Positions 1-21,177 of a stretch of DNA of 64,000 nt are shown here, piece after piece. A program made the translations under genes and the position numbers. The notes beneath the pieces were generated by a model. The model made no database searches, had not been told where the DNA came from, and saw only the letters and a program-made list of their open reading frames with translations. Origin of the DNA: a virus; IMG/VR virus record IMGVR_UViG_3300023110_000034, positions 1 through 64,000 of that record, one strand, 5' to 3'. How positions within the stretch are numbered: the stretch's first letter is position 1; every line of letters begins with the position of its first letter.

Positions 1-81
1 TCCTTGTGTTTTACCCACTTCCAGTTCATATTGATTGAAAGTATCAATCAAAAATCCATTGATCTCCGTGTTATTAATCAT
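1..81 (-). CDS. Start of a replication protein, possibly primase-helicase (runs off window)
   Basis: Only the first 27 codons lie in the window, starting with the ATG complement at 79-81 and running off the left edge. The visible residues begin MINNTEINGFLIDTFNQYEL. An opening of the form 'INGF-hydrophobic-D-x-[FY]-NQ' is one I associate from memory with the N-terminus of primase-helicase proteins of Bacteroidota phages, just before a zinc-binding segment. The zinc segment is outside the window, so this is inference. It is the last visible gene of the leftward replication block, directly after the SSB-like gene, which suits a replisome component. It could equally be an unrelated small protein. 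Confidence 0.35.
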   Translation of the reverse strand, partial: MINNTEINGFLIDTFNQYELEVGKTQG

Positions 82-142
82 TTAATCTTCTATCAAATTT
101 TCATTGTCATTATCATTGCTTACAGCAACATCGTAATCATCA

Positions 143-463
143 TCAAAATGGTAAATCATCTTCTTGTGCGATTGATTGCGCTTGTGTTGATGCAGCTTGT
201 GGTGTTTGACCATCACGAGGTGGTGGCGATGGAAATTCACCATTAGTCCATACAACTTGGGCATTACCAAGATATGTTTTTTCCATTTTAGCTTCACGCT
301 CTTCTTTAGATTGTGATACTATTACTGGACCTTGATTACCAAATTGATCAACTTCATCATTTACTGTTATAGTAATTGGTAAGTATTTACCTTTCTTACC
401 TTCAATAATTTTATCTTTAGGTATTGCTGAAAGATTAATACTTGTTTTAATTATACCAGCCAT
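143..463 (-). CDS. SSB-like single-stranded DNA-binding protein
   Basis: This 106-residue protein ends in QEDDLPF. An acidic tail finishing in D-D-hydrophobic-P-F is the signature by which bacterial SSB proteins recruit partner enzymes. Before it is a proline/glutamine-rich linker (about residues 78-100), as in SSB. The N-terminal 75 residues are predicted-beta and could be a small OB fold, but this is shorter than the usual SSB fold of about 110 residues and I do not see the classical SSB aromatic pattern. It sits beside an exonuclease and an ERF annealing protein, the standard company of a phage SSB. It would coat single strands during replication and recombination. The tail is strong evidence for the role; the fold itself is inferred. 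Confidence 0.7.
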   Translation of the reverse strand: MAGIIKTSINLSAIPKDKIIEGKKGKYLPITITVNDEVDQFGNQGPVIVSQSKEEREAKMEKTYLGNAQVVWTNGEFPSPPPRDGQTPQAASTQAQSIAQEDDLPF

Positions 464-464
464 A

Positions 465-632
465 TTAATATGTGCTTAAGGTGTTAAACATTCTGCGTAA
501 CTGATCTTTATTTGCACCAGTTACACGGCGTAGGTTATCTACGGCTTTTACATGGGAATGACCATTATAGAAATTATTTTCACTTGTGGTAATTCCAGTT
601 ACGTTGCATGTTCTTTTTCTAGTTCGTGCCAT
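465..632 (-). CDS. Small basic protein between SSB and exonuclease genes
   Basis: A 55-residue open frame starts MARTRKRTCNVTG and fills the space between the exonuclease and SSB-like genes, with one base between its stop and the SSB start. It is basic, has a single cysteine and is predicted mostly helical in its second half (DNLRRVTGANKDQLRRMFN). The tight fit, same strand and A-rich leader support a real gene. I do not recognise the family; a small DNA-binding accessory protein is possible from its charge and place only. Confidence 0.55.
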   Translation of the reverse strand: MARTRKRTCNVTGITTSENNFYNGHSHVKAVDNLRRVTGANKDQLRRMFNTLSTY

Positions 633-652
633 AATAATAAAATTTAAGTTAA

Positions 653-1396
653 TTAAAGTGTTTTTTGTACAAAGTACTGTGATGGATCGAACCCATCAGT
701 CTTATAGAATAAATCGTACACTTCTGTTGCTTTCTTTACTTTTTCATAACCTGATTCATAGAATCTGTCTGAACAATCAAAGATACCAATTTGGTGTGTA
801 GTTTTATCTATAGCAATAAACAAAAAATCATAATCAAATATTCTCCTATATATATAGGCTTGACTGTCGTAATTATAGCGGTAGGCACTGCTTTTAAATC
901 GGTTTAAATCACCTGTAGTTTTCAAATCAATGATTAATTTTTCATCATGATTAACTATATCAGCTTTACCCTTCCACCAATTACCTTCTAATTCAATTAT
1001 TCCAGGTACTTCGTATTCAATCTGTGATTTATTATTTGAACCTAGAATAAATTCTTTACAGATCTTATTAGTTAAGACCTTTTCTCGCATTAATTCAATC
1101 TGATCAACTTCATGCTGTAATAAGCATAACTCACCTTCAGAAATTTCTTTATATTTCTTTGTACTCCTAGTGGTTGCTTCAATCACTTTATACTTTTCCA
1201 GTTTATCTGGTTCAAGTATTGCAGTGTGAAAATAACCTCCGACTAAAAAAGCTGGATTAGGTTTTGAAGGTTGCTTAAAGTCAAGCGGATTGTTTAATAA
1301 TACGGATATGTCTGAATTGCTTAAATACTGTTTACCAAATTCACCATAGTAATCTGCATCATTTCTAAGCTTTTGTATTACTTGTTCTGACTTCAT
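653..1396 (-). CDS. RecE/exonuclease VIII-like PD-(D/E)XK exonuclease
   Basis: A 247-residue nuclease of the RecB/RecE type. Visible features are G-x-x-F-H57-T-A-x-L-E-P, the metal-binding core GKAD146-I-V with I-I-D157-L-K159-T-T, and the downstream helix Y-D-S-Q179-A-Y that matches the 'QxxxY' motif. The family degrades one strand of a DNA duplex to leave 3' overhangs for a partner annealing protein. The adjacent ERF gene, overlapping by 32 bases, supplies that partner, so the pair forms a phage recombination system comparable to RecE-RecT or lambda Exo-Beta. At about 250 residues it is typical of the compact phage forms that lack the long N-terminal extension of E. coli RecE. Confidence 0.85.
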   Translation of the reverse strand: MKSEQVIQKLRNDADYYGEFGKQYLSNSDISVLLNNPLDFKQPSKPNPAFLVGGYFHTAILEPDKLEKYKVIEATTRSTKKYKEISEGELCLLQHEVDQIELMREKVLTNKICKEFILGSNNKSQIEYEVPGIIELEGNWWKGKADIVNHDEKLIIDLKTTGDLNRFKSSAYRYNYDSQAYIYRRIFDYDFLFIAIDKTTHQIGIFDCSDRFYESGYEKVKKATEVYDLFYKTDGFDPSQYFVQKTL

Positions 1397-1922
1397 ACGA
1401 TTTTAATTCAGACTTGTCTTCAATAGACACGTCGTATTTACTTACTATTGTTGTTACGCTTCCGCCAGATTGAATATAGCTTAATGCTTTACTCCAGTTG
1501 TCTGACCCCTTTAATAATTTAGGCTTTGATTGTTTACCGTGAGTATTAGTCGCATCAGCGTCTGCAGTATCATCAATTAGTAATAGATTGCCAAGTGCAT
1601 ACTTTTTACCATAAGAAGATGCAGATCCAAATTGCTGAGGAACTTGCATACCCTTTTGGTTAAAGTCTACACCAACAACAGCCGAGGATTCAATAAAATT
1701 TGCACCATCAGCATCAAATATAGATGCAACAGATTCAATTATACCGTCACCAAGGTATTTCTCATTAACAGTAAAGTATACTTTATACTTTTTGTTAAAT
1801 GGTTTAAGTGCTTCGAGAATGTCTTCGGCAGATCTGAAATTGTACTTGCCGAATGAATTGTACCGCGATTTTTTTGCCTTAAACTCTTGTTGAATTAAAC
1901 TTAATTTTTCGTGGATATTCAT
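1365..1922 (-). CDS. erf: ERF-family single-strand annealing protein
   Basis: This 185-residue protein shows the ERF family pattern. An N-terminal helix (MNIHEKLSLIQQEFKAKK) is followed by a conserved 'fGKYNFRSAEDILEALKP' segment, a beta-rich core, and the diagnostic G-S-A-S-S-Y-G-K-K-Y-A-L-G-N-L-L-L-I-D-D near residues 100-120 with the acidic D-T-A-D-A-D-A after it. ERF proteins (P22 Erf is the type member) anneal complementary single strands, often to circularise or repair phage genomes. It acts with the exonuclease encoded just downstream. The C-terminal region after residue 130 is less conserved, as usual for the family. Gene order exonuclease/annealase/SSB is classical. Confidence 0.88.
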   Translation of the reverse strand: MNIHEKLSLIQQEFKAKKSRYNSFGKYNFRSAEDILEALKPFNKKYKVYFTVNEKYLGDGIIESVASIFDADGANFIESSAVVGVDFNQKGMQVPQQFGSASSYGKKYALGNLLLIDDTADADATNTHGKQSKPKLLKGSDNWSKALSYIQSGGSVTTIVSKYDVSIEDKSELKSYEVRTSNTKA

Positions 1923-1957
1923 AATTAAACTTGATTTTAATAATATTTTTACGTAAC

Positions 1958-2689
1958 TTATAGAAAATCAACCACTTGCGCAGGATCTACATTATCTATT
2001 AATTTATTAATTGCGTCACGCTTTATCTGCGAAATTCGCACATAAGCCGCGGTTCCATCAATCTTCAATTTATCAGCTATTTCTTTAGCTGACATTTTAT
2101 CACAATCTAAACCGTAGCTCATTCTAAGCACATCGTATTCTTTTATATTAAGGTGTGCTTCCATTATACTTAATAGATATTTATTCATAATATCTATGTT
2201 GTACTCTTTTGTTTTGTCTTCAACTTGAACAAATTTATCTACATCATCATCAATACTAGAAAATATACTATTAAAAAATACTTCAATAGTTCTTTTTTCT
2301 TGCTCAGAATTTTTACGCATATCATTTAATTTATGCTCAGGTATTCTGATATTACCTCTGTTAATATCAATAGCTCTGCGTATTGCACCCTTAATGCGTT
2401 TAGATAGAAATGATTTTAGTGTTCTTTCAGGTTCTGTTGAATCTGTTATAACATCCCAATCAATTTTATCTACTGCATGTATTAATCCTATTGCACCCTC
2501 TTGAATTAGATCATTTATAGTTAACACACCAGATGCTTGCTGTGTTGTGGAAAATTTCCTTGCTATATTTTCAACTAATTCCATGTTTTCTACTATAATT
2601 TTTTCTCTATCATCAGAAATATCTCTTAACAATGTTCTGTCAAGGTCATGCTTGTATCGTACATAATTTTGTACATTATATTTCTTCAT
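1958..2689 (-). CDS. RNA polymerase sigma factor (sigma-70 family)
   Basis: A 243-residue sigma factor. Region 2 is visible as E-N-M-E-L-V-E-N-I-A-R-K-F followed by I-N-D-L-I-Q-E-G-A-I-G-L-I-H-A-V-D-K (about residues 55-80), the core-polymerase-binding and -10-recognition part. A second block, S-F-L-S-K-R-I-K-G-A-I-R-R-A, matches the end of region 2 and start of region 3. The C-terminal helix-turn-helix, M-S-A-K-E-I-A-D-K-L then A-Y-V-R-I-S-Q-I-K-R-D-A, is region 4, which would read the -35 box. It presumably redirects host RNA polymerase to phage promoters. The repeated element upstream of several early genes here is one candidate target; late promoters are the other. It overlaps the next gene by 14 bases. 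Confidence 0.87.
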   Translation of the reverse strand: MKKYNVQNYVRYKHDLDRTLLRDISDDREKIIVENMELVENIARKFSTTQQASGVLTINDLIQEGAIGLIHAVDKIDWDVITDSTEPERTLKSFLSKRIKGAIRRAIDINRGNIRIPEHKLNDMRKNSEQEKRTIEVFFNSIFSSIDDDVDKFVQVEDKTKEYNIDIMNKYLLSIMEAHLNIKEYDVLRMSYGLDCDKMSAKEIADKLKIDGTAAYVRISQIKRDAINKLIDNVDPAQVVDFL

Positions 2690-3293
2690 TTAGTAAAAGT
2701 TTTTCTTGTCTTATCTCATTTGTTATGTTTCTATATATCGTTCTGGTTGATACATTTAAAGCCTTAGCTATATTTGATATTGTGATTTTTTTATTGTTAT
2801 CGTGAATATACAACATTGTTTCGTAAATATCATCAGGTTCGGCTAATTTTTTTTTGCCAATGAGTTTTCCGACTATACTTAACTTCTGTGAAGTATCTAA
2901 TCCAGTAACTTCTTTGAATATGATTTTACGCATTTTATTTTTAGGTGGTGCGTCTAAATCACTTTCAAATACTTCTTGTACTAAATTTTGTATTGAAGCT
3001 TTACTAAGCGTAATGGTTGCAAAACCATTTTCTTTATCAGCAATAAATTCAGCTAATTCTGTAATCTGATCGTATTCTAATCTAGGATTAAGATACCATA
3101 GAACGAGCATGTGCCATTTAAATGACTTATAAGACGTTATTTTAGCCTTACTTCTAAATAACTCGTAACACTCGTACGTACCACTCTCATAAAAGTCACC
3201 CCAGCTGTATGATTCAGAAGGGGTGTCAGTAATTGGTCCGCGTCGATATACGATGCGTCTTCGATGAAAATAGTCGAGTTTTCTATGCGACAT
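2676..3293 (-). CDS. Putative transcriptional regulator with C-terminal helix-turn-helix
   Basis: A 205-residue protein whose last 50 residues form a clear helix-turn-helix: I-T-I-S-N-I-A-K-A-L-N-V-S-T-R-T-I-Y-R-N-I, resembling resolvase-like or sigma region-4-like DNA readers. The first 35 residues are very basic and aromatic (RKLDYFHRRRIVYRR); the middle is helical with no motif I recognise. The gene overlaps the sigma factor and is transcribed ahead of it, so the two may act together. A phage transcription regulator or sigma accessory factor is a reasonable inference; a replication-initiation role cannot be excluded. Confidence 0.6.
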   Translation of the reverse strand: MSHRKLDYFHRRRIVYRRGPITDTPSESYSWGDFYESGTYECYELFRSKAKITSYKSFKWHMLVLWYLNPRLEYDQITELAEFIADKENGFATITLSKASIQNLVQEVFESDLDAPPKNKMRKIIFKEVTGLDTSQKLSIVGKLIGKKKLAEPDDIYETMLYIHDNNKKITISNIAKALNVSTRTIYRNITNEIRQEKLLLNEEI

Positions 3294-3314
3294 TAGCCTG
3301 CTACTTATTTAATT

Positions 3315-3419
3315 TTATTTGCTATCGTCACACTCTGGTCCGATGATTTCATAAAGGATTTCTAAATCTTCTAGTTCGGCTGGTGTGATGTGGTTTAATT
3401 GGTCTTTTGTTGCTCCCAT
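3315..3419 (-). CDS. Tiny acidic protein, 34 residues
   Basis: The frame starts MGATKDQLNHITPAELEDLE and ends in an acidic CDDSK tail. It fills the gap between two leftward genes, and its start overlaps the stop of the 67-residue gene upstream by one base, the packing used throughout this strand. Predicted as one acidic helix. No family recognised. Confidence 0.45.
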   Translation of the reverse strand: MGATKDQLNHITPAELEDLEILYEIIGPECDDSK

Positions 3420-3622
3420 TATAATAATAATAGTTTTAAATACTTTTGGTGTTGTTTCATGCGTTTTGATATTGATTGTATCTCTTTTACTTTAGCATTA
3501 AGCTCTTTTCCTTTAAGTTCATCAATATCTTTCACTTTTTTAGTCATGCATTTATGCATATGAAAAATGTGATCTCTTACAAAATTAACGTGTTTAGTCT
3601 TTTTTGTCTTTAATTTTATCAT
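3419..3622 (-). CDS. Small lysine-rich protein, 67 residues
   Basis: Very basic (about a quarter lysine), with predicted coiled helices through M-T-K-K-V-K-D-I-D-E-L-K-G-K-E-L-N-A-K-V-K-E-I. It has no membrane segment and no motif I know. It lies in a run of small leftward genes and shares bases with both neighbours. A nucleic-acid-binding or host-takeover role would be guesswork. Confidence 0.5.
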   Translation of the reverse strand: MIKLKTKKTKHVNFVRDHIFHMHKCMTKKVKDIDELKGKELNAKVKEIQSISKRMKQHQKYLKLLLL

Positions 3623-3710
3623 AATTTTTCTTTTTAGTTAAACTTTTGATCGTCTCTGATATGTTTCTATAATTAGAAGCCATCAGGTGTTTATACAATT
3701 TATGACTCAT
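3594..3710 (-). CDS. Tiny basic protein, 38 residues
   Basis: The frame begins MSHKLYKHLMASNYRNISET and ends in a lysine-rich tail (KKKNYDKIKDKKD). It overlaps the next gene by 29 bases and starts one base after the previous stop. The long overlap lowers confidence; the start context is A/T-rich like its neighbours. Function unknown. Confidence 0.4.
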   Translation of the reverse strand: MSHKLYKHLMASNYRNISETIKSLTKKKNYDKIKDKKD

Positions 3711-3711
3711 A

Positions 3712-3864
3712 TTAAAATATTGTTGTAATATCTATTATTGCCTCTGGATGGTAATATTTAAGTATGTCTTCAATTGTTTTTTCTGCAACGTGTATAGCAA
3801 CTTTATTGTTAATCAGGTACTTATGCGTACCAAAGCGAGGGCAATTAATTATCAGTTCATCCAT
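3712..3864 (-). CDS. Small unknown protein, 50 residues
   Basis: The frame starts MDELIINCPRFGTHKYLINN and has an alternating hydrophobic pattern that suggests a small beta-alpha fold. Its short opening 'hydrophobic-N-C-P-x-F-G-x-H' phrase could be a metal or nucleotide-binding turn, but only one cysteine and two to three histidines are present. It packs exactly between neighbours, with a one-base start/stop overlap upstream. Confidence 0.5.
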   Translation of the reverse strand: MDELIINCPRFGTHKYLINNKVAIHVAEKTIEDILKYYHPEAIIDITTIF

Positions 3865-4142
3865 TACAATCCTCTTAATTTTAATTTTATCTGTCTTATT
3901 TTGTTTTTAATTATATCAGCTTTTTCATATTGTTCTTCGCCTACATATCTATTCTCAAGTTCATATAATCTTTCTAATTCATAATGAAAAAACTCTGATT
4001 CAGATACAGATGATGAATTGCCAAACTCATCATATATAACATACTGGTGTTTTGTTTCATTATTTTCTTGTGATTGCTTATCAATTAACTTTTCAAAAAT
4101 TAATTGAGCAATACGTTCTATTTCTCCGTCTGTTAAAGCCAT
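3864..4142 (-). CDS. Unknown protein with UVR-like helical hairpin at C-terminus
   Basis: The 92 residues begin with a short amphipathic helix (MALTDGEIERIAQLIFEKL). They end with E-L-E-R-L-Y-E-L-E-N-R-Y-V-G-E-E-Q-Y-E-K-A-D-I-I-K-N-K-I, a pattern like the UVR coiled hairpin of UvrB/UvrC (L-x3-M-x2-A-x2-L-x-FE-x-A-x2-R-D-x-I). UVR hairpins mediate protein-protein contacts. The likeness is by eye and partial. It could be an adaptor in replication or early takeover. Confidence 0.55.
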   Translation of the reverse strand: MALTDGEIERIAQLIFEKLIDKQSQENNETKHQYVIYDEFGNSSSVSESEFFHYELERLYELENRYVGEEQYEKADIIKNKIRQIKLKLRGL

Positions 4143-4143
4143 A

Positions 4144-4326
4144 CTATCTATTTATTAGATCCATTATTTCTTGTTTTATATTTACAATTTCTTCAGCAGC
4201 TTCAACTATTTGATCAATAGTACAGGCTTGATCCATACTTAATGATCTATTGTCATACAACCCGCCGTTAAAATTGTGTACAAACCTCCAAAGAGATTCA
4301 GCTGCTTCTAATGAATTATCACGCAT
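4144..4326 (-). CDS. Small acidic helical protein, 60 residues
   Basis: The 60-residue frame (MRDNSLEAAESLWRFVHNFN...) is acidic, with a C-terminal helix rich in I, E and A. It overlaps the upstream KTSC gene by 8 bases and lies two bases from the gene downstream. No family recognised. Confidence 0.5.
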   Translation of the reverse strand: MRDNSLEAAESLWRFVHNFNGGLYDNRSLSMDQACTIDQIVEAAEEIVNIKQEIMDLINR

Positions 4327-4543
4327 TTGAAAAATTATATTGTTTTAAAATATGTTTATGTATGAACTTACCAATTGATTCAGCATATTTCATAGATAGA
4401 AATTTATCTAATGGTACATTAAAATAATCATACTTTCTACCATTTACAAATGTAAGGCGTAGTTTGTTTAATTTATAATCATATTTAGCTTTTTTAATAG
4501 CCATTGAATTTACTTGTAATGTTTCTTTATTTAATTTAATCAT
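4319..4543 (-). CDS. KTSC-domain protein
   Basis: The 74 residues match the small KTSC domain: V-N-S-x-A-I-K-K-A-x-Y-D near the start, L-x-L-x-F-x-N-G-R-x-Y-x-Y-x-x-V-P in the middle, and A-E-S-I-G-K-F-I-H-K-H-I-L at the end. KTSC domains occur alone in phages and fused to lysyl-tRNA synthetase and other proteins. Their function is not firmly established; a nucleic-acid-binding role has been suggested. It lies next to the DnaA-like gene. Identification of the domain is good; its role here is open. Confidence 0.75.
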   Translation of the reverse strand: MIKLNKETLQVNSMAIKKAKYDYKLNKLRLTFVNGRKYDYFNVPLDKFLSMKYAESIGKFIHKHILKQYNFSNA

Positions 4544-4546
4544 AAT

Positions 4547-4951
4547 TTATTTAATTAAAAATTTATTTATTTTAGTTTCTAAAGCTTCAATTCTATTTAA
4601 TACTTGATCAAATGTCATATCAGCATATTCTTCACGGCCCGGTTTAATATAATAAATATCAAGGTGTTTGGCTATGCTATCATATACGTCATGCATATAT
4701 GGGTCATAACGAGCCTCAATATCAAATCTTTTAAGGCCATTAATTACGGTCGCATGATCACGATTAACAAGTCTACCTATTTTAGATAAGCTTGCATACC
4801 TGCAGTATTTTCTAGCTAATTTAAAATATATAAAGCGTGCTTGTGACATTTCACGTGTACGATCTTTAATTGATATATCTTCAAGATCTAATTCTTTTTG
4901 TACCATACGCAAGACTTTTTCAGGTCTAGCAATCTTTTCTTTTGTTTCCAT
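4547..4951 (-). CDS. Stand-alone DnaA domain IV (DnaA-box-binding) protein
   Basis: A 134-residue protein whose residues 10-78 read as the C-terminal DNA-binding domain of DnaA. The visible signature is R-x-M-S-Q-A-R-F-I-x-F-x-L-A-R-K-Y then S-L-S-K-I-G-R-L-V-N-R64-D65-H66-A-T-V-I, equivalent to the DnaA signature '...GRDHxTV'. There is no AAA+ ATPase domain, so it cannot assemble an initiation complex alone. It could bind DnaA-box-like sites (TTATCCACA-type) at the phage origin, block host initiation, or act as a transcription regulator. A predicted coiled coil (residues 110-134) may dimerise it. The TTATCC core inside the repeated upstream element in this region is a possible target (inference). 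Confidence 0.85.
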   Translation of the reverse strand: METKEKIARPEKVLRMVQKELDLEDISIKDRTREMSQARFIYFKLARKYCRYASLSKIGRLVNRDHATVINGLKRFDIEARYDPYMHDVYDSIAKHLDIYYIKPGREEYADMTFDQVLNRIEALETKINKFLIK

Positions 4952-4953
4952 AT

Positions 4954-5166
4954 TTAATAAGGTTTGTAAGTTGATTTATAAATTGAATTGTGAGTAAATT
5001 TAGTTTTATGTACTTTTTTACCGCTGAATATGATTTCACGATTGCGTGAATAATCTTCATCAGTAAATGGTTTGCAATAGCCGTGTATAGCAGTTTCAGC
5101 TTTCCATTTAGCAGCATTGCGTTTCTTTTTGTTTTCTACGTATTGTTTTAATTCTTTAATTGTCAT
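4954..5166 (-). CDS. Small basic unknown protein, 70 residues
   Basis: A basic 70-residue protein starting MTIKELKQYVENKKKRNAAK, with a lysine/tyrosine-rich C-terminus. An alternative frame of 63 codons on the same strand (4926-5117) is less protein-like and overlaps the next gene, so this frame is preferred. The ATG overlaps the stop of the upstream gene. Not recognised. Confidence 0.55.
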   Translation of the reverse strand: MTIKELKQYVENKKKRNAAKWKAETAIHGYCKPFTDEDYSRNREIIFSGKKVHKTKFTHNSIYKSTYKPY

Positions 5167-5303
5167 TAGTATAAAGGTTTAGTATATTCAGGTTCAGTTT
5201 GCCAGTGTTCCATTAAATGTTCACCGGTTGAGTTATCTATATAATATGTTTCAGTACCTATTGTTATAAATACTGAATTTTCAGATCGTACATCTATAAT
5301 CAT
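5166..5303 (-). CDS. Tiny unknown protein, 45 residues
   Basis: The frame starts MIIDVRSENSVFITIGTETY; two beta-strand-like stretches are followed by an acidic tail. It overlaps the downstream start by one base and the upstream stop by four bases, which supports translational coupling. Function unknown. Confidence 0.5.
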   Translation of the reverse strand: MIIDVRSENSVFITIGTETYYIDNSTGEHLMEHWQTEPEYTKPLY

Positions 5304-5542
5304 TTTGTTAATTGTTTAGCCATATATGTTGCATATGGGGTTGTTGTTTTCATTGGTTCAATAAGTTCAGCCATGCGTAGCCATACCCTTAGGTTGCTAA
5401 TGTCACCCATAACTAATTTATAGGATAACTCAGGCCAAGCCGCATTGTGTCTGTTACGGAAATGAGTACGTAAATTTAATCTATAATGTGCTATTTTAGA
5501 TATTAGCTTTGCCTCAATTCGATCGTCAATTGGATTTGTCAT
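5300..5542 (-). CDS. Small unknown protein downstream of the structured RNA
   Basis: An 80-residue helical, basic protein (MTNPIDDRIEAKLISKIAHY...) with no motif I know. Its start codon lies about 25 bases after the structured RNA at 5566-5880, if that element is read leftward, so the RNA would be its 5' leader. It is the first gene of a string of overlapping small genes running to the DnaA-like gene, and a leader RNA could therefore control several of them. Function unknown. Confidence 0.55.
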   Translation of the reverse strand: MTNPIDDRIEAKLISKIAHYRLNLRTHFRNRHNAAWPELSYKLVMGDISNLRVWLRMAELIEPMKTTTPYATYMAKQLTK

Positions 5543-5565
5543 AGGTATTTGATTTAAAATTAATA

Positions 5566-5880
5566 ATATTGCCAGCTTTATTCGGCGCTGGCTACCTAGC
5601 CTTCTTAACCGTTCCGGCTACGTCTGCCCAAGAGGGCATTGACAAACACACATAAAATGTGGTACAGAGGAGGAGGTACATGACCCTCGCTTCAACTCGA
5701 GTATCTATTTACCCGTCGGTAATCCTCTGTAGCTTTTAATATTTTTATGATGGCGTCCCTTGTGCGGGTTCTTCAGGTAGCTAATCCTTATCCTCACCGA
5801 AGCCAACGGGGTAGAGGACCATCATAAATGTTATGCTTCTCTGGACAATGCCTTGCCACGCGGTTCTCATAACATTTTTG
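5566..5880. ncRNA. Candidate structured RNA, about 315 nt, no coding frame
   Basis: No convincing gene lies here, and the stretch is visibly richer in G+C than its flanks. Long perfect inverted repeats stand out: GCCAGC 5571-5576 with 5587-5592; TGCCC 5625-5629 with 5634-5638; CACAT 5649-5653 with 5657-5661; a 9-bp stem 5663-5671 with 5723-5731; a 10-bp stem 5744-5753 with 5819-5828; and AATGTTATG 5827-5835 with 5868-5876. Smaller hairpins sit inside the big stems, for example TTACC/GGTAA near 5709-5722. Read rightward, the last hairpin is followed by five T, like a terminator. Read leftward, with the neighbouring genes, it becomes a long leader of the gene at 5300-5542. It is not a tRNA, and I see no RNase P or tmRNA signature. 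The class is unknown to me. Confidence 0.7.
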
Positions 5881-6027
5881 TTATAGTTGTTGGTTAAGTA
5901 TGTAGTTTATAACTTGACTTGGTGTACCAGTCATTGTGCGTTCTTCGTCGTATAGATCTTTGAACGTTAAACTATAAAACTTTGGCTTGTGTATAGCAAA
6001 CTGTGTGTTAAATTTATTACCAGCCAT
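5881..6027 (-). CDS. Tiny unknown protein, 48 residues
   Basis: The frame starts MAGNKFNTQFAIHKPKFYSL and ends N-Y-I-L-N-Q-Q-L. Its stop codon abuts the T-run side of the structured RNA, and its start lies two bases from the next gene's stop. Mixed beta and helix are predicted. No family recognised. Confidence 0.5.
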   Translation of the reverse strand: MAGNKFNTQFAIHKPKFYSLTFKDLYDEERTMTGTPSQVINYILNQQL

Positions 6028-6028
6028 A

Positions 6029-6259
6029 TTATTTAGTTTGTGTTGTTATAATTTCTTTTTCGTTTTCAAGCTTATTAATTACGCTATGTAATTTTACTGT
6101 GATATAGTCTACAATATCTTGTACATCAAAGCCGTCATTCCATACAGTTGGTACAAACTTTTCAAGATAGTATCTTGTGTCCCAATCAGCATTAGTTAAT
6201 TTTTCAATGCGATCAATTTTGTTTTGTAAGTCTAAATAATTTTCTAATTGTGTGTTCAT
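6029..6259 (-). CDS. Small acidic unknown protein, 76 residues
   Basis: Mostly helical and acidic (MNTQLENYLDLQNKIDRIEK...), with a central aromatic stretch (DTRYYLEKFVPTVWNDGFDV). It is the first gene downstream of the promoter-like element at 6293-6325, whose TATTATC end lies about 34 bases before its ATG. This arrangement suggests its own transcription start. Function unknown. Confidence 0.55.
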   Translation of the reverse strand: MNTQLENYLDLQNKIDRIEKLTNADWDTRYYLEKFVPTVWNDGFDVQDIVDYITVKLHSVINKLENEKEIITTQTK

Positions 6260-6292
6260 AATATTTAATTTTAATTGTTTGTTATTCGTTAT

Positions 6293-6325
6293 TATTATCT
6301 GTTATGCTTCGTGTTTACTTTGTAA
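6293..6325 (-). promoter_or_regulatory. Promoter-like repeat copy 1 (upstream of 6029-6259)
   Basis: On the plus strand: TATTATCT, eight variable bases, TCGTGTTTA, three bases, TGTAA. Read leftward this is TTACA, N3, TAAACACGA, N8, then an A/T-rich ATAATA, placed just before a small gene. It overlaps the last codons of the gene at 6302-6625. It is one of six copies with identical spacing. Confidence 0.6.
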
Positions 6326-6625
6326 TTCTTCTTCAAGATAGTTTTCAACTTCATACTCTGGTAAGTATTGTTCAAGATCGCTTACATATACGATAGCATC
6401 TTCGTCCAAATCTTTAATGCGTTCAATAATATCATCAAATGGTGGTTGATAATAATAAACATCCATATCCCATTGCATATGTATATGGTCATTAGTCATA
6501 ACGTGTACGTCATAGCTGTCTGCAGTCATATACTCACTAATTTGTAAATCTGCACTTGGTGTATAGTCTTCTGTAAATTTAGCTATGTTTAAAGCTTTTG
6601 CTAGTTGTGTGTAAATATTTGTCAT
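6302..6625 (-). CDS. Acidic unknown early protein, 107 residues
   Basis: A strongly acidic protein, with clusters such as D-L-D-E-D and E-V-E-N-Y-L-E-E-E-L, and a methionine/histidine-rich middle (V-H-V-M-T-N-D-H-I-H-M-Q-W-D-M-D-V). Highly acidic small phage proteins sometimes mimic DNA, but no homology supports that here. A promoter-like element for the next gene is embedded in its 3' end. Its ATG overlaps the stop of the 59-residue gene upstream in the ATGA manner. Confidence 0.6.
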   Translation of the reverse strand: MTNIYTQLAKALNIAKFTEDYTPSADLQISEYMTADSYDVHVMTNDHIHMQWDMDVYYYQPPFDDIIERIKDLDEDAIVYVSDLEQYLPEYEVENYLEEELQSKHEA

Positions 6626-6801
6626 TTTGTTACTCTTTTAATTAATGTAAATAATATTTGTTGTTTAACTTTTAATTCTAATTCGTTAAAGTCATCGCCT
6701 TCAAGTTCTTCTTCGTCAAGTTGCCAGTGTATTGTATTGTCAATGTATTCGTCAATAACTTCGATACAGTGATCAGCCATTTGTTGTACTATTGTGTTCA
6801 T
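6622..6801 (-). CDS. Small acidic protein, 59 residues
   Basis: The frame starts MNTIVQQMADHCIEVIDEYI, contains an E/D-rich middle (Q-L-D-E-E-E-L-E-G-D-D) and ends in a basic helix. It overlaps by four bases at both ends, typical of this operon. Function unknown. Confidence 0.55.
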   Translation of the reverse strand: MNTIVQQMADHCIEVIDEYIDNTIHWQLDEEELEGDDFNELELKVKQQILFTLIKRVTK

Positions 6802-6998
6802 GCTATTTCAAGATTAAGTTGTTGTGCTACGTAGTTGATATGTTTCGACGTCGTTGGACTGTGCGACCCGACGCCGGGAACATACCAATTCACCAAATGA
6901 AGTTTGTTATCTTTTATTTGTGCAACAACAGTGTCATAAGAATAAATATCGTTGCCAACCATTTTTAAGTTTTGTTTGTATCTGTCAAATGTTTTCAT
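6798..6998 (-). CDS. Small conserved phage-type protein with TTSKHINYVA motif
   Basis: The 66 residues include D-I-Y-S-Y-D-T-V-V-A-Q-I and, at the C-terminus, T-T-S-K-H-I-N-Y-V-A-Q-Q-L. I recall this combination from small proteins of marine cyanophages and other phages, of unknown function. A few residues between the two motifs (V-P-G-V-G-S-H-S-P) look like an insertion, and the DNA there (about 6845-6885) is locally GC-rich. The gene follows the promoter-like copy at 7025-7057, whose near end is about 27 bases from its ATG. Confidence 0.6.
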   Translation of the reverse strand: MKTFDRYKQNLKMVGNDIYSYDTVVAQIKDNKLHLVNWYVPGVGSHSPTTSKHINYVAQQLNLEIA

Positions 6999-7013
6999 AA
7001 TTGTGTTTGTTTG

Positions 7014-7250
7014 TTATTTGTTAGTATTATCCGTTTGTTGTCGTATTAACTCTGTAATTTGTTTTTCAGTTTCTTTAATATTATATGACTGAAAGACTAT
7101 ACCACCACCGTAACTTTTTGTGTGGTATTTACGGCCACCGATTTTGTTTGCCAAGTGTATAGCATTTTGATAGTCGTCTGCAATATTTAAAAAATGCACT
7201 ACATATCTTGGATTGCCATATGTGTCGTTTTTAATTCTTGTAAATTCCAT
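7014..7250 (-). CDS. Small conserved phage-type protein (GGRKYHTKSYGGGIVFQSYN)
   Basis: A 78-residue protein with the pattern T-R-I-K-N-D-x-x-G-N-P-R-Y-V-x-H-F-L-N and, later, G-G-R-K-x-H-x-K-x-Y-G-G-G-I-V-F-Q-S-Y-N. I associate this with a small uncharacterised family in phages and bacteria. The glycine-rich turn and conserved basic residues look like a compact beta fold. Its 3' end contains the promoter-like copy for the next gene. Function unknown. Confidence 0.65.
   Translation of the reverse strand: MEFTRIKNDTYGNPRYVVHFLNIADDYQNAIHLANKIGGRKYHTKSYGGGIVFQSYNIKETEKQITELIRQQTDNTNK
7025..7057 (-). promoter_or_regulatory. Promoter-like repeat copy 2 (upstream of 6798-6998)
   Basis: Plus-strand reading: TATTATCC, eight bases, TCGTATTAA, three bases, TGTAA. 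Same spacing as the other copies. It lies within the last codons of 7014-7250 and about 27 bases ahead of the next start codon. Confidence 0.6.
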
Positions 7251-7342
7251 TATGATAATTCAGTTAAAATTAATGTTACACCGGTTAAGAACAGACCTAA
7301 TAGAAAGCCTGTGTCGAGGTTTTGTAGTTCAAATAGTTCCAT
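7250..7342 (-). CDS. Tiny single-pass membrane peptide, 30 residues
   Basis: The frame MELFELQNLDTGFLLGLFLT continues with a hydrophobic G-V-T-L-I-L and ends E-L-S. It predicts one short membrane helix with acidic ends. It overlaps the next gene by one base. Such peptides are easily missed; a role in the host membrane is possible but unsupported. Confidence 0.45.
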   Translation of the reverse strand: MELFELQNLDTGFLLGLFLTGVTLILTELS

Positions 7343-7346
7343 AATA

Positions 7347-7493
7347 TTATAATTTTATTTCGTCTTCTGGTTTGTATTCGTGTTTGTTTCTAGGTGGTGT
7401 TGGGTTCAGTGTTGGAGGAGAATATTTATATCCAAGTATTGGATTGATTCCGTGATTCCAAAAATCCCAAGGCATTTCTTTTTTAGTATCCAT
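7347..7493 (-). CDS. Small proline-rich protein, 48 residues
   Basis: The start chosen is the internal ATG at 7493 (MDTKKEMPWDFWNHGINPIL). A longer 68-codon reading from 7553 would overlap the upstream gene by 71 bases. The chosen start overlaps it by 11. The C-terminal half is proline-rich and basic/acidic (S-P-P-T-L-N-P-T-P-P). Function unknown. Confidence 0.5.
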   Translation of the reverse strand: MDTKKEMPWDFWNHGINPILGYKYSPPTLNPTPPRNKHEYKPEDEIKL

Positions 7494-7671
7494 ATTTAGT
7501 ATAATGTTTAATTGTTTCAGCTGATGCTTTATTGAATTGGTGTACTCGTTCACGATACTTTGGATCGGTACAATATTTTCTCATTGCTCGGGATTCTGTA
7601 CATTCACCCCAGCGACGTTCAAAGTCGTCAACTTGTTTTAGTTTTGCTTTTAGTTGTGCTTCTGTTTTCAT
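7483..7671 (-). CDS. Small basic unknown protein, 62 residues
   Basis: A basic helical protein (MKTEAQLKAKLKQVDDFERR...) with two cysteines. The phrase R-A-M-R-K-Y-C-T-D-P-K-Y-R-E-R-V-H-Q-F-N is not one I can place. Overlaps neighbours slightly on both sides. Confidence 0.5.
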   Translation of the reverse strand: MKTEAQLKAKLKQVDDFERRWGECTESRAMRKYCTDPKYRERVHQFNKASAETIKHYTKYGY

Positions 7672-7781
7672 TTTAATGTCATTGTTATTAGCTCAAATTC
7701 ATCGTTTGTTATTGTACCTTCCATTAAGGCTAGAAATTCTTTTGAGACGTCTCGTCCTGTGTATTTGTTTATTATTGTCAT
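7668..7781 (-). CDS. Tiny unknown protein, 37 residues
   Basis: The frame starts MTIINKYTGRDVSKEFLALM and overlaps the downstream start by four bases. It lies one base from the upstream stop. Supported by packing only. Confidence 0.45.
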   Translation of the reverse strand: MTIINKYTGRDVSKEFLALMEGTITNDEFELITMTLK

Positions 7782-7782
7782 A

Positions 7783-7923
7783 TTAGTTATTTATTAAATA
7801 TTCTTTTGTTTCATCATAGCTCAGTGGCCAATCGTAGTATTTGTATATTCTGTAAATCTTTTCTTCTGTTGGTAGGTCAAGCGTGTTAACCCAGTCCATT
7901 AAATTTGTGTGTGATGTGTTCAT
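7783..7923 (-). CDS. Tiny unknown protein, 46 residues
   Basis: The frame starts MNTSHTNLMDWVNTLDLPTE and has an aromatic middle (I-Y-R-I-Y-K-Y-Y-D-W-P-L-S-Y-D-E). It overlaps the upstream gene's stop by four bases. Function unknown. Confidence 0.5.
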   Translation of the reverse strand: MNTSHTNLMDWVNTLDLPTEEKIYRIYKYYDWPLSYDETKEYLINN

Positions 7924-8111
7924 ATTATATAATCTTTTTTAATTTTTTTTATTAATTCAAATCGTTGGTCAAGTAACTGTTGGTGTATAGCAAGCAATTG
8001 CTCTTGTTGGTCTAGTGATAATCCTAAGCCTTGTATTTTTAGGTCTTGTATCATATCTAGTTTACCATTTATTTCGTGTAGCCTTGTTATTTGATTTTCT
8101 TGTGTTATCAT
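7920..8111 (-). CDS. Small coiled-coil protein, 63 residues
   Basis: Nearly all helix, with heptad-like leucine/isoleucine spacing (I-T-R-L-H-E-I-N-G-K-L-D-M-I-Q-D-L-K) and a glutamine-rich second helix. Probably a two-helix coiled coil. Starts and ends overlap neighbouring genes by four bases. Confidence 0.55.
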   Translation of the reverse strand: MITQENQITRLHEINGKLDMIQDLKIQGLGLSLDQQEQLLAIHQQLLDQRFELIKKIKKDYII

Positions 8112-8299
8112 AGTCCTACAAATTTATTTATTATTTCTAATTCTGTTTTATATTCTTTTTCTTGGTCAGGGCTGAGATTATATAATCTATCAACATTATT
8201 TTTTGTTTTAACATAGTCAACTAATGTGAAGTATATTTTATCAATTTGTTGTTGTGTTAATTCTACTTTTGTGTATGTGTCTACTAAATGTTGTTTCAT
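8108..8299 (-). CDS. Small helical unknown protein, 63 residues
   Basis: The ATG at 8299 (MKQHLVDTYTKVELTQQQID) is preferred over the one at 8320. The promoter-like copy at 8324-8356 ends so close that transcription would be expected to start near or after 8320. The protein is helical with no motif known to me. Confidence 0.5.
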   Translation of the reverse strand: MKQHLVDTYTKVELTQQQIDKIYFTLVDYVKTKNNVDRLYNLSPDQEKEYKTELEIINKFVGL

Positions 8300-8323
8300 T
8301 GTGTTTGTTTTTATGTTCATTTA

Positions 8324-8356
8324 TATTATCCGTTTGTGATCGTATTAAGCTTGTAG
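8324..8356 (-). promoter_or_regulatory. Promoter-like repeat copy 3 (upstream of 8108-8299)
   Basis: Plus-strand reading: TATTATCC, eight bases, TCGTATTAA, then GCTTGTAG. The right part overlaps the last codons of 8345-8533, as copies 1 and 2 overlap the gene before them. Confidence 0.6.
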
Positions 8357-8533
8357 TTTGACATGAGAGTAATATACTTTTGTTGTGTCTATGTAGTCGT
8401 ACAGTGGTCGACGTGAGAATGTTACTCTGGTTGTACTCTTCATTGGTCGTACATAGTTAGCCATAAGGTCTTGAGTACGTTTGTTTTGTCTCTCAATTTT
8501 CTTTTTCAATTTGTTGTATGCTTCAGTAGTCAT
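8345..8533 (-). CDS. Small basic unknown protein, 62 residues
   Basis: Very basic (MTTEAYNKLKKKIERQNKRT...), with a predicted N-terminal helix and a beta-like C-terminus. A weak, degenerate resemblance to the repeated upstream element lies near 8555-8590 but lacks the TATTATCC core, so I do not call a promoter. Function unknown. Confidence 0.5.
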   Translation of the reverse strand: MTTEAYNKLKKKIERQNKRTQDLMANYVRPMKSTTRVTFSRRPLYDYIDTTKVYYSHVKLQA

Positions 8534-8601
8534 AAGGTGTGTGTTTTATTTGTTAATGTTTTATTGTTTACTGGTATTAAACTAAGCCTTTGTGTGTGTT
8601 T

Positions 8602-8772
8602 TTACCATTTTTCAATAGGATTTTCAGTTATATTTTCAAATTTAGTTAACAATTTATCAATTTTAGCTTTAGCTTGTGGACTGAATCGATCGAAGTCAGG
8701 GTTGTTGATGAGGTCTTCGAGTGCCATCCAAATTATTTCAGTTTCAAAGGGAGTAAGTTGTGTAGTTACCAT
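8602..8772 (-). CDS. Small unknown protein, 56 residues
   Basis: The frame starts MVTTQLTPFETEIIWMALED and is helical throughout, with the phrase N-N-P-D-F-D-R-F-S-P-Q-A-K-A-K-I-D-K-L. It is preceded, at about 27 bases, by promoter-like copy 4 (8799-8831). Function unknown. Confidence 0.55.
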   Translation of the reverse strand: MVTTQLTPFETEIIWMALEDLINNPDFDRFSPQAKAKIDKLLTKFENITENPIEKW

Positions 8773-8798
8773 GTGTTTGTATTTTTAATGTTCTTATA

Positions 8799-8831
8799 TA
8801 TTATCCAATTGAGATCGTGTTTAGTTTGTAA
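8799..8831 (-). promoter_or_regulatory. Promoter-like repeat copy 4 (upstream of 8602-8772)
   Basis: Plus-strand reading: TATTATCC, eight bases, TCGTGTTTA, three bases, TGTAA. It fits between two small genes, ending exactly where the stop codon of 8832-8948 begins. Confidence 0.6.
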
Positions 8832-8948
8832 TTATTCTTGATCCCACCACTCATTATTGTAATAGTTTACAACATCTTGATTTGTACAAAGATTGTTATT
8901 AATTAACTCTTTAATTTGTTTTGTGGTAAGGTTGTCAAAGTTGTACAT
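8832..8948 (-). CDS. Tiny unknown protein, 38 residues, first gene of the leftward module
   Basis: The frame starts MYNFDNLTTKQIKELINNNL and ends with an acidic aromatic tail (N-N-E-W-W-D-Q-E). As the first gene leftward of the divergent region, behind copies 5 and 6 of the repeated element, it is likely to be among the earliest transcribed. Function unknown. Confidence 0.55.
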   Translation of the reverse strand: MYNFDNLTTKQIKELINNNLCTNQDVVNYYNNEWWDQE

Positions 8949-8973
8949 TGTATTTGTTTTTTTGTTACATATA

Positions 8974-9006
8974 TATTATCCAAATTGGTTCGTGTTAACT
9001 TTGTAA
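8974..9006 (-). promoter_or_regulatory. Promoter-like repeat copy 5 (upstream of 8832-8948)
   Basis: Plus-strand reading: TATTATCC, eight bases, TCGTGTTAA, three bases, TGTAA. About 26 bases separate its near end from the ATG at 8948. This copy matches the consensus best. Confidence 0.62.
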
Positions 9007-9370: not shown

Positions 9371-10297
9371 ATGGAGGTATCACAGATACGTTATGCGCAA
9401 ATAGACCCTAATGGTTTATGCAATGCAGGATGTTGGTTTTGTCCTGTAGCGTATATAGGTAATCCGAAGGAATCAATTAATCAAATGGAACCATCAGATT
9501 TCCGCAATATAATACAACAAATAGATTATTACAAAGGAGATATTGTTTCACCTGAATTTAATGGTATATATACATCCCATTATAATGAAGCATTGTTATA
9601 TAGGTATTTTGAAGAAATGCTAGAAACATTGCGTGAATTTAGTCTAGGGATGGTTGTATTAACTAATGGTACAACATTAACGCCGGATAAAGTGGATATA
9701 ATAAATAAATATCCAGATGTAATATGGGGAGTATGTGTAAATGCGCCAATATGGTCAGATGCAGAGTTATTTGCAAAACGCACTAATATGAACCAAAGCA
9801 TATTTGAACGTTTAAAAATGAATGTGTCGTATGCTTATACCAATCTTAAAAATAAAAATTTATTATCTATACAGATTAATGGGCATGATCATGAGTCAGG
9901 GGCACTTAAAGGTCCTAAGTTTCCAGACATATCAGATACAGAATTAGATGAACAGGTAGCTATTGCTAAAGAAATGTTTCCAAATACTAATGTATTTAAA
10001 CAACCGCACCTTATAGATAGGGCCGGCCTTATAGACGATTATATAAGTTCATCGCCTTTTGTGCATAAAGATAAAAAAGTTGTTGGGTGTATGGGCAAAA
10101 GAGATACGGAATGGATACATGTAAATGCAAACTCTGAATTATTCCTATGCTGCAATGATTATCATATGGAACATAAATATGCTAATCTTAAAGAAACAAC
10201 ATTAAAAAATGCTTGGGGCAGTATAAAACATAAAGAAGTATTACAACATGCTTGGGGTACAATATGCAATTCTTGTACTTCTGCTATATATGAATAA
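9371..10297 (+). CDS. Radical SAM enzyme with SPASM-like C-terminal domain
   Basis: A 308-residue protein. C17-x3-C21-x2-C24 near the N-terminus (N-G-L-C-N-A-G-C-W-F-C) is the radical SAM iron-sulfur motif, which binds S-adenosylmethionine and makes a 5'-deoxyadenosyl radical. The C-terminal part has C240, C260-C261-N-D, a following N-L-K-E and C299-x2-C302, the layout of SPASM domains that hold one or two further clusters and often modify peptides or complex substrates. It is the first rightward gene after the divergent region, alone between 423 and 134 bases of non-coding DNA, and so is probably separately controlled. No obvious precursor peptide lies beside it. Phage-borne radical SAM/SPASM proteins exist in environmental data, but their substrates are mostly unknown. 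The fold call is firm; the reaction is unknown. Confidence 0.85.
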   Translation: MEVSQIRYAQIDPNGLCNAGCWFCPVAYIGNPKESINQMEPSDFRNIIQQIDYYKGDIVSPEFNGIYTSHYNEALLYRYFEEMLETLREFSLGMVVLTNGTTLTPDKVDIINKYPDVIWGVCVNAPIWSDAELFAKRTNMNQSIFERLKMNVSYAYTNLKNKNLLSIQINGHDHESGALKGPKFPDISDTELDEQVAIAKEMFPNTNVFKQPHLIDRAGLIDDYISSSPFVHKDKKVVGCMGKRDTEWIHVNANSELFLCCNDYHMEHKYANLKETTLKNAWGSIKHKEVLQHAWGTICNSCTSAIYE

Positions 10298-20061: not shown

Positions 20062-21177
20062 ATGGCATTGAATTTTTTAAATAACATTGATTTAAATAAA
20101 AATCAAGTTCAAAACGGAGTAATCCACGTATTGGCTGCTGCTCCTTTAAATCCTGTTGAAGGACAAATTTATTATAACTCCACAGATAAAAGATTATACT
20201 TTTACGATGCAACCAACTGGATTGACGCATCTGGAGATATTAAAAGTGTTACTACAACAACTTCTAATCAAGTAACAATAACTGATCCAACAGGTCCAAA
20301 TCCATCATTAGCTATTGTAACTGCAGCAGTAACAGCAGGCGGAACCGCACTTGCAACTGGCGATCAAATTGCGACTTACGTTACAAATGGTATTGGTAAT
20401 ATTTCATTCACTGTCCAAGGTACTACAAATGAAATTGAAGTAACAAATGGAACTGTAGGTGATGGCGATACTGTAACAATTGGATTACCTAATGATATTA
20501 CTATTGGTAATGACCTTACTGTAACAAATGATTTAGATGTTGATGGTAGCGTTACACTTGGTACAACAACAGCTGATACAGTTAATATTGCTGGTAGTAC
20601 AGTAATTGGTGGTGATTTAACAGTACAAGGTACAACCACTACTGTAAATTCCAATACAGTTAACATTGGCGATAGTATTATTACTTTAAACTCAGATGAG
20701 ACTGGTTCGCCATCACAAGACGGTGGAATTGAAATTGAAAGGGGTACTGCAGCAAATAGAAGCCTAATATGGGATGAAAGTGCTGGGGAATGGACTATTC
20801 AGCAATCATCAGGTAATTACGAAAGAATTGCAACATATGCAGATTCTGTTGAAGATGTAACTGTACAAGAAGGTACGGGAGGCGGTGTGACGGTAACAGA
20901 AACACTATCTGGTACAGATAATAGAATTAAAACATATGATCTTGAATTAGACATAACAAACTTTACTCATAAAGCATCGATTGGTGATGGATCTAGTTTA
21001 AGTTATGATGTTACACACAACTTTGGTACTAGAGACGTTATTGTACAACTTTATGATACATCATCATACGATACTGTTTATGCGGATGTAGTTAGAACAG
21101 ACACAACAAAAGTAACTATCACATTTGCTACTGCACCTACTACAAACGATATTAGAGTGCTTATTACAAAACTATAA
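20062..21177 (+). CDS. Tail fiber protein with repeated beta strands
   Basis: The 371 residues begin M-A-L-N-F-L-N-N-I-D-L-N-K-N-Q-V, an N-terminal phrase common in marine phage fibers. A triple-helix-like repetitive region follows (I-T-I-G-N-D-L-T-V-T-N-D-L-D-V-D-G-S-V-T-L-G), with the frequent block G-D-L-T-V-Q-G-T-T-T-T-V-N-S-N-T-V-N-I-G-D and N-R-S-L-I-W-D-E-S. The C-terminal 80 residues form a separate beta unit (H-N-F-G-T-R-D-V-I-V-Q-L-Y-D). Such proteins make the shaft of tail fibers. The receptor specificity is unknown. Confidence 0.75.
   Translation: MALNFLNNIDLNKNQVQNGVIHVLAAAPLNPVEGQIYYNSTDKRLYFYDATNWIDASGDIKSVTTTTSNQVTITDPTGPNPSLAIVTAAVTAGGTALATGDQIATYVTNGIGNISFTVQGTTNEIEVTNGTVGDGDTVTIGLPNDITIGNDLTVTNDLDVDGSVTLGTTTADTVNIAGSTVIGGDLTVQGTTTTVNSNTVNIGDSIITLNSDETGSPSQDGGIEIERGTAANRSLIWDESAGEWTIQQSSGNYERIATYADSVEDVTVQEGTGGGVTVTETLSGTDNRIKTYDLELDITNFTHKASIGDGSSLSYDVTHNFGTRDVIVQLYDTSSYDTVYADVVRTDTTKVTITFATAPTTNDIRVLITKL

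Follow-up and report, generated by a model that had tools for sequence, protein, structure and literature searches.

Shuffled small RNA modules in an early-gene slot of a phage related to flavobacterial podoviruses

Phages are already known for a few large mystery RNAs and for many tRNAs. GOLLD and ROOL are structured RNAs of phages and prophages that often lie near tRNA islands, have no known protein partner and are of unknown function; many GOLLD RNAs are longer than 800 nt (PMC12286853). Both are single large RNAs, whereas the locus described here holds several independent, shuffled RNAs of 55–130 nt that have no match in Rfam. Tandem small RNA genes are also a feature of phage tRNA arrays, including those of related phages (16 tRNAs in the part of the phi38:1 genome covered and 15 in Maribacter phage Panino), and four of the 14 slots compared here end in a genuine tRNA-Met(CAU). 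Modules A–D of the array, however, lack both a T-arm and an anticodon, and neither ARAGORN nor Rfam identifies them as tRNAs. Cyanophages carry cis-regulatory and small RNAs (wcaG, manA, glnA, and abiF; PMC9964418). These are likewise small, structured and from marine phages, but they belong to Rfam families, none of which matches here. No description of arrays of this kind was found in the open-access literature, and their novelty, judged against that literature, is provisional.

A noncoding gap and its modules

The window analyzed is the whole 64,000-nt stretch at positions 1 to 64,000 of IMG/VR record IMGVR_UViG_3300023110_000034. Its capsid and portal proteins match those of Flavobacterium elemo, Cellulophaga, and Maribacter phages, so the host is probably a flavobacterium. 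On sequence comparison, the phage groups with flavobacterial podoviruses (Flavobacterium elemo and Cellulophaga phi38:1, the latter filed under Pervagoviridae). Positions 5543–5880 form a noncoding gap between two small minus-strand genes. It is part of the early/replication operon, in which the DnaA-domain, sigma, Erf, and exonuclease genes are farther downstream. A gene for a radical SAM/SPASM protein (9371–10297, plus strand) is located at the start of the rightward operon. The features of the gap and its flanks, in the order of leftward reading, are as follows.

5881..6027, minus strand: upstream flanking gene, 48 aa, the usual 5' neighbor of the slot
5823..5880, minus strand: module D, stem ATGTTATG/CATAACAT with 12/13-bp arms closing a loop of ~32 nt; first in the array
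5744..5828, minus strand: module A, closing stem TTTATGATGG/CCATCATAAA of 8–10 bp, a perfect 10-bp stem
5662..5732, minus strand: module B, three-way junction, with covariation and a covariance model
5643..5652, minus strand: spacer UGUGUGUUUG, single copy, just 5' of module C
5570..5638, minus strand: module C, GCCCUCUUGGGC with AGCC/GGCU and GCCAGC/GCUGGC hairpins; last before the next gene
5300..5542, minus strand: downstream flanking gene, 80 aa, the starting query for relatives

The first-pass annotation had described 5566–5880 as one large, unrecognized structured RNA with raised G+C and no coding frame. The composition is as described: no ORF of at least 40 aa overlaps the stretch, and its G+C content is 47% compared to about 31% nearby, a level reached by 0.2% of 315-nt windows in positions 1–9000 and by 1.1% in the whole window. 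Both long stems that had been singled out exist and are perfect (9 bp at 5663–5671/5723–5731 and 10 bp at 5744–5753/5819–5828). In addition, there is a 12/13-bp arm pair at 5823–5835/5868–5880 and a GCCAGC/GCTGGC pairing at 5571–5576/5587–5592. The proposed excess of stems over chance was borne out for long stems, with three perfect stems of at least 9 bp observed and 0.04 expected (0 of 500 dinucleotide shuffles had as many), and three of at least 8 bp where 0.19 were expected (500 dinucleotide shuffles). It did not extend to stems of 5–6 bp, which were near chance in dinucleotide shuffles (19 vs 14 and 4 vs 3.5), so the long stems alone count as evidence. Folding energy of the whole stretch was moderately low on both strands (z −1.8 plus, z −2.4 minus) and by itself would not have been convincing; values for single modules were also moderately low (z −1.9 to −3.0, minus strand).

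The Rfam search that the annotation had proposed was run over the window with Rfam 15 and returned no match above curated cut-offs, including the riboswitch, ribozyme, and CRISPR families. The CRISPR result bears on RNA anti-CRISPRs (Racr), which mimic a CRISPR repeat of the host. At E-values up to 10 nothing relevant was recovered; the best hits were GibS/FopS-like and were rejected as A/T-rich chance matches. The GOLLD and ROOL models were unmatched at both the gathering score and E up to 10. Searches of the window for tRNAs (Rfam RF00005, and ARAGORN for an anticodon with a T-arm) and for tmRNA (ARAGORN) were empty, and the 80-aa product of 5300–5542 had no match in PHROGs.

Shuffled modules in a shared slot

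Relatives were collected from IMG/VR using the 80-aa downstream gene (six contigs), a sigma-factor alignment (80 loci), and a second sigma query (25 further loci). The closest 13 contigs and the window were used as a comparison set of 14 slots. The same intergenic slot holds differing sets of 55–130-nt stem-closed modules in these 14 contigs. Module order was taken from blastn matches and from reading of the sequences. All relatives that carry modules of the window are metagenome contigs, and Rfam matches in the relatives were to tRNA only. The arrays are given below 5' to 3' on the gene strand, where "spacer" denotes a single UGUGUGUUUG or a variant.

Window: D, A, B, spacer, C
L032: D, A, spacer, G, B
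L017: D', A, B, spacer, G
L028: A, spacer, E, B
L025: A, B, spacer, hairpin
L019: A, spacer, C, T
L018: spacer, E, F, T
L020: spacer, E, F, G
L021: spacer, G, F, T
L022: spacer, G, x, F, T
L026: spacer, H, G, tRNA-Met
L023: spacer, H, I, tRNA-Met
L024 and L027: spacer, H, I, J, tRNA-Met

The unit of the locus is the module rather than the 315-nt stretch. Because relatives carry the modules in other orders and contexts, with other neighbors, and because B also occurs alone in unrelated phages, the reading as one large RNA is rejected. The spacer UGUGUGUUUG has its sole exact copy within the window in this array. Of the 14 arrays, 8 have exactly one exact copy and the others have a variant; its architectural place is constant (by eye in L025). 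It is a candidate processing or promoter element, though not a standard promoter, since the Bacteroidetes housekeeping promoter TTTG-N-TAnnTTTG occurs at chance-level frequency and is absent near the array.

Module B, with its sister family F, has compensatory changes beyond shuffle controls and is in this sense a structured RNA, as the annotation had proposed for the stretch. It is a three-way junction with a P1 of 9 bp (5663–5671/5723–5731), a P2 hairpin with a GACG loop, and a P3 hairpin with a GUMAUGNN loop. The covariation check among related marine phage contigs, also proposed earlier, was positive for this module. An alignment of B and F contains eight pairs changed on both sides and has a covariation score of 0.451 compared to 0.262 in shuffles; none of 500 shuffles reached this score, and sliding the partner destroyed the signal. 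The B subfamily with one copy from an unrelated phage has six double-changed pairs and 99.2% of cells paired (0 of 500 shuffles). These shuffle counts are not probabilities, because the nine (B and F) and six (B) sequences are few and related. The strongest single point for B is a set of adjacent P1 compensations in L124, where A-U is replaced by G-C beside a G-C replaced by C-G.

A covariance model (R1) scored the window copy at 91.8 bits, a copy that belongs to the model's own sequences. In 1.69 Mb, R1 recovered the nine slot members that form its training set and nothing further above noise. It also identified five stand-alone copies of B in L124–L129, which are outside the training set. 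The primase of these contigs is closest to those of Lillamyvirus-type Flavobacterium siphophages, not podoviruses, and in this siphovirus-like flavophage lineage the closing stem of B is altered yet still paired. B is single copy in every record that contains it, and blastn found neither module B nor a direct match to the whole region in isolated phages. The loops and junctions (GACG, GUMAUG, and AG.U.AA) are the most conserved part of B and F. The junction of B contains the palindrome ACTCGAGT, which is 8 nt in B (ACUCGAGU or UCUCGAGA) and 6 nt in F (ACUAGU). Three sequences show compensation at the outer pair of this palindrome, which could be either a hairpin of two pairs or a contact between dimers. 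Just downstream of B in L124–L129 is another stem-closed element (TTTGGTTT...GAGGGGTGA...TCACTCCTC...AAACCAAA) with a loop complementary to the upstream AGGGAACA.

Homology and position, with limited sequence support, suggest that D, A, and C are units like B. Module D has a copy in L032 with 97% identity over 63 nt, and L017 has a shorter version that keeps the stem with a G-C to A-T change (sequence of L006); these three examples weakly suggest a folded unit. Six nucleotides (5823–5828) are common to the outer 3' arm of D and the outer arm of A. Module A has a conserved core with the hairpin TCCTC...GAGGA and homologs in L017, L019 (5' half only), L025, L028, and L032. Its RNAalifold consensus contains three pairs changed on both sides; the closing stem is plausible and the inner fold tentative. 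A hand-drawn fold of A with a pseudoknot had no covariation either way and was rejected. Module C has a fold z of −2.97 on the minus strand, and the sole other copy found in IMG/VR is in L019. Cassette G of the relatives covaries under both shuffle and slide controls; hits of the G pattern in viral contigs L011 and L012 were chance matches in unrelated sequence.

Between phages, modules were more similar than the genes beside them. The L019 copy of module C matches it at all positions over 75 nt (100%), compared to 83%–87% identity for adjoining genes, and in L025 A (99% over 80 nt) and B (92%) exceed an adjoining gene at 71%. These values are most simply read as exchange between phages, and strong purifying selection could have contributed.

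In both phage lineages the modules point the same way as the genes that flank them, and they are co-oriented with the tRNA genes of the slot; the array was therefore assigned to the leftward strand, from which it is probably transcribed. Counts of G-U pairs versus A-C mismatches on the gene strand, 8:1 in cassette G and 6:2 in module A, favor this strand as well. The count in the B and F alignment (14:12) is uninformative on strand, as the F rows are misaligned in P1. A plus-strand reading is compatible with folding energy, but gene co-orientation speaks against it.

tRNA-like RNAs in related phages

Some relatives have tRNA-like RNAs without an anticodon arm in the slot. A total of 38 such RNAs (T cassettes) were identified in related phages and none in the window; examples are L018:3972–4058, L055:5145–5219, and L088:5364–5441, with 35 more. 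They have a 7-bp acceptor (GGGNGUG or GGACGUG), a stem-less D loop, and a T-arm. G3-U70 is present in 33 of 38 and A73 in 36 of 38, and pair 4-69 occurs as C-G, A-U, U-A, and G-C. The T cassettes are possible alanine acceptors. In all of these elements (acceptor, D loop, T-arm, G3-U70, and A73) they resemble the tRNA-like domain of tmRNA, but they have no tag reading frame, and exchangeable hairpins stand where the anticodon arm would be. The replacement hairpin recurs in another T RNA for 17 of 38 cassettes and outside the listed T copies for 20 of 38, the latter being an upper figure since a few outside cases (e.g., L052 and L104) are themselves T RNAs that filtering had collapsed as duplicates or overlooked. 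These exchangeable hairpins support a picture of swappable RNA domains. A search of genome contigs with the T-cassette pattern produced seven matches, of which five are chance and two (L130 and L131) look genuine. The latter are Aliivibrio MAG contigs and are probably flavophage contigs mis-binned into a Vibrionaceae MAG.

Other tRNA-like RNAs were observed. Minimal 47-nt forms at L033:381–427, L085:5456–5502, and L110:6054–6100 consist of an acceptor, CUACGGUACUAA, and a T-arm, and show compensatory acceptor changes. Further examples of 44–49 nt are located at L036:1225–1269, L038:20–63, L047:1736–1784, and L107:2435–2478. A second family (L056, L068, L074, L075, L079, L083, L092, L104, and L110), mostly with an AACUAGG acceptor, has a T-arm preceded by a hairpin, for example CUACCGACGGGUAU, whose CCGACGGG loop resembles P2 of B. 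The domain GGGGAGGCGATGTAACTTCGTTCAGAAGCGAGCCCACAGTGAA was found both free and within a larger scaffold (L024, L027, where it is just 5' of tRNA-Met, and L049:8100–8200), an occurrence that appears to be RNA domain grafting.

Possible role of the array

We favor, at a probability of roughly 55%, an array of small trans-acting RNA cassettes that are released from an early transcript and swapped between phages, building on cassettes that are shuffled and, for B, covary and occur in two phage lineages. Four cassettes (5' D-A-B-spacer-C 3') would be read leftward in a flavobacterial podovirus, within its early/replication transcript. Every cassette would fold independently inside its closing stem and move between phages as a unit, with the closing stem free to change sequence while paired and the core loops fixed. 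The cassettes would then be cut out of the polycistronic transcript to act in trans, each through a core that binds a conserved component of the host. Their most likely purpose would be counter-defense or translation takeover, as RNA effectors that are decoys or inhibitors of host defense or of the translation/tRNA machinery. Trans-acting RNAs with a conserved target in the host would fit the conservation of the loops, the closing stems that vary yet pair, the single copy number, and the recurrence in unrelated phages whose hosts are similar. Mobility and changing context likewise suggest small RNAs that act in trans.

The strongest rival, which we consider unlikely, is that the modules serve the processing or stability of a polycistronic early mRNA, where they would only need to be cut or to block RNases, and that their inner sequence hardly matters. 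Such hairpin punctuation would resemble tRNA punctuation in mitochondria. The modules do sit between co-directed genes, with one spacer motif per array and closing stems that vary yet stay paired, and slots of relatives often end in tRNAs or tRNA-like RNAs with the T-arm and acceptor abutting the next start codon. A mere hairpin, however, has no need of the loop and junction conservation in B and F, and B is single copy and present in unrelated phages.

A cis-regulatory, riboswitch-like leader of 5300–5542 is improbable, although the array is directly upstream of this gene and on the correct strand. Several different modules occur in a row, and their order and number between B and the gene vary. 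The downstream feature differs among the window, L017, L025, L028, L032, and L124, and B in L124–L129 precedes yet another gene. Other genes follow these modules in L025 and L032, which argues against cis control of one gene and contradicts the earlier annotation of a leader specific to 5300–5542. It is similarly improbable that the modules are small self-cleaving ribozymes of an unrecognized class that would cut the transcript into pieces. Such ribozymes would be in keeping with the size of the modules (55–90 nt), with the unpaired residues conserved at their junctions, and with their place in a transcript of several RNAs, but there was no Rfam ribozyme match even at E up to 10 and no nameable conserved cleavage site. 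A DNA-level element, such as a hairpin replication origin or integron attC-like recombination sites, is the least probable: a DnaA-C domain gene (4547–4951) is about 0.6 kb downstream and the cassettes shuffle, but tRNA genes occupy the same slot, cassette G and module A have more G-U than A-C on one strand, no integrase was present among the proteins scanned, and B is located elsewhere in another phage type.

A broader and more tentative possibility is a hypervariable flavophage locus of combinable RNA effectors, swapped as cassettes in an arms race that phage and host would wage through RNA. The effector domains would be stem-closed and either free or grafted onto scaffolds, for example, an anticodon-less alanine-type tRNA mimic. 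If true, the locus would be to RNA what anti-defense islands are to proteins. Many small, unrelated, conserved RNA folds that are mixed and matched would point to a class of RNA-based host takeover or counter-defense missed by protein-centered annotation, and at least one fold (module B) is common to unrelated phage types. These ideas are testable, as related isolates have laboratory hosts (phi38:1 and elemo) and the structure of B is backed by covariation.

Unannotated RNAs were also observed in these two isolates. Phage elemo (L138, MT497078.1) has a stem-closed RNA (GGCAGAAT...ATTCTGTC) beside tRNA-Met at ~20240–20560 on the minus strand. In phi38:1 (L123), a tRNA-like sequence with a middle part of ~115 nt extends from 20678 onward on the minus strand, directly upstream of the gene for RtcB (tRNA splicing ligase).
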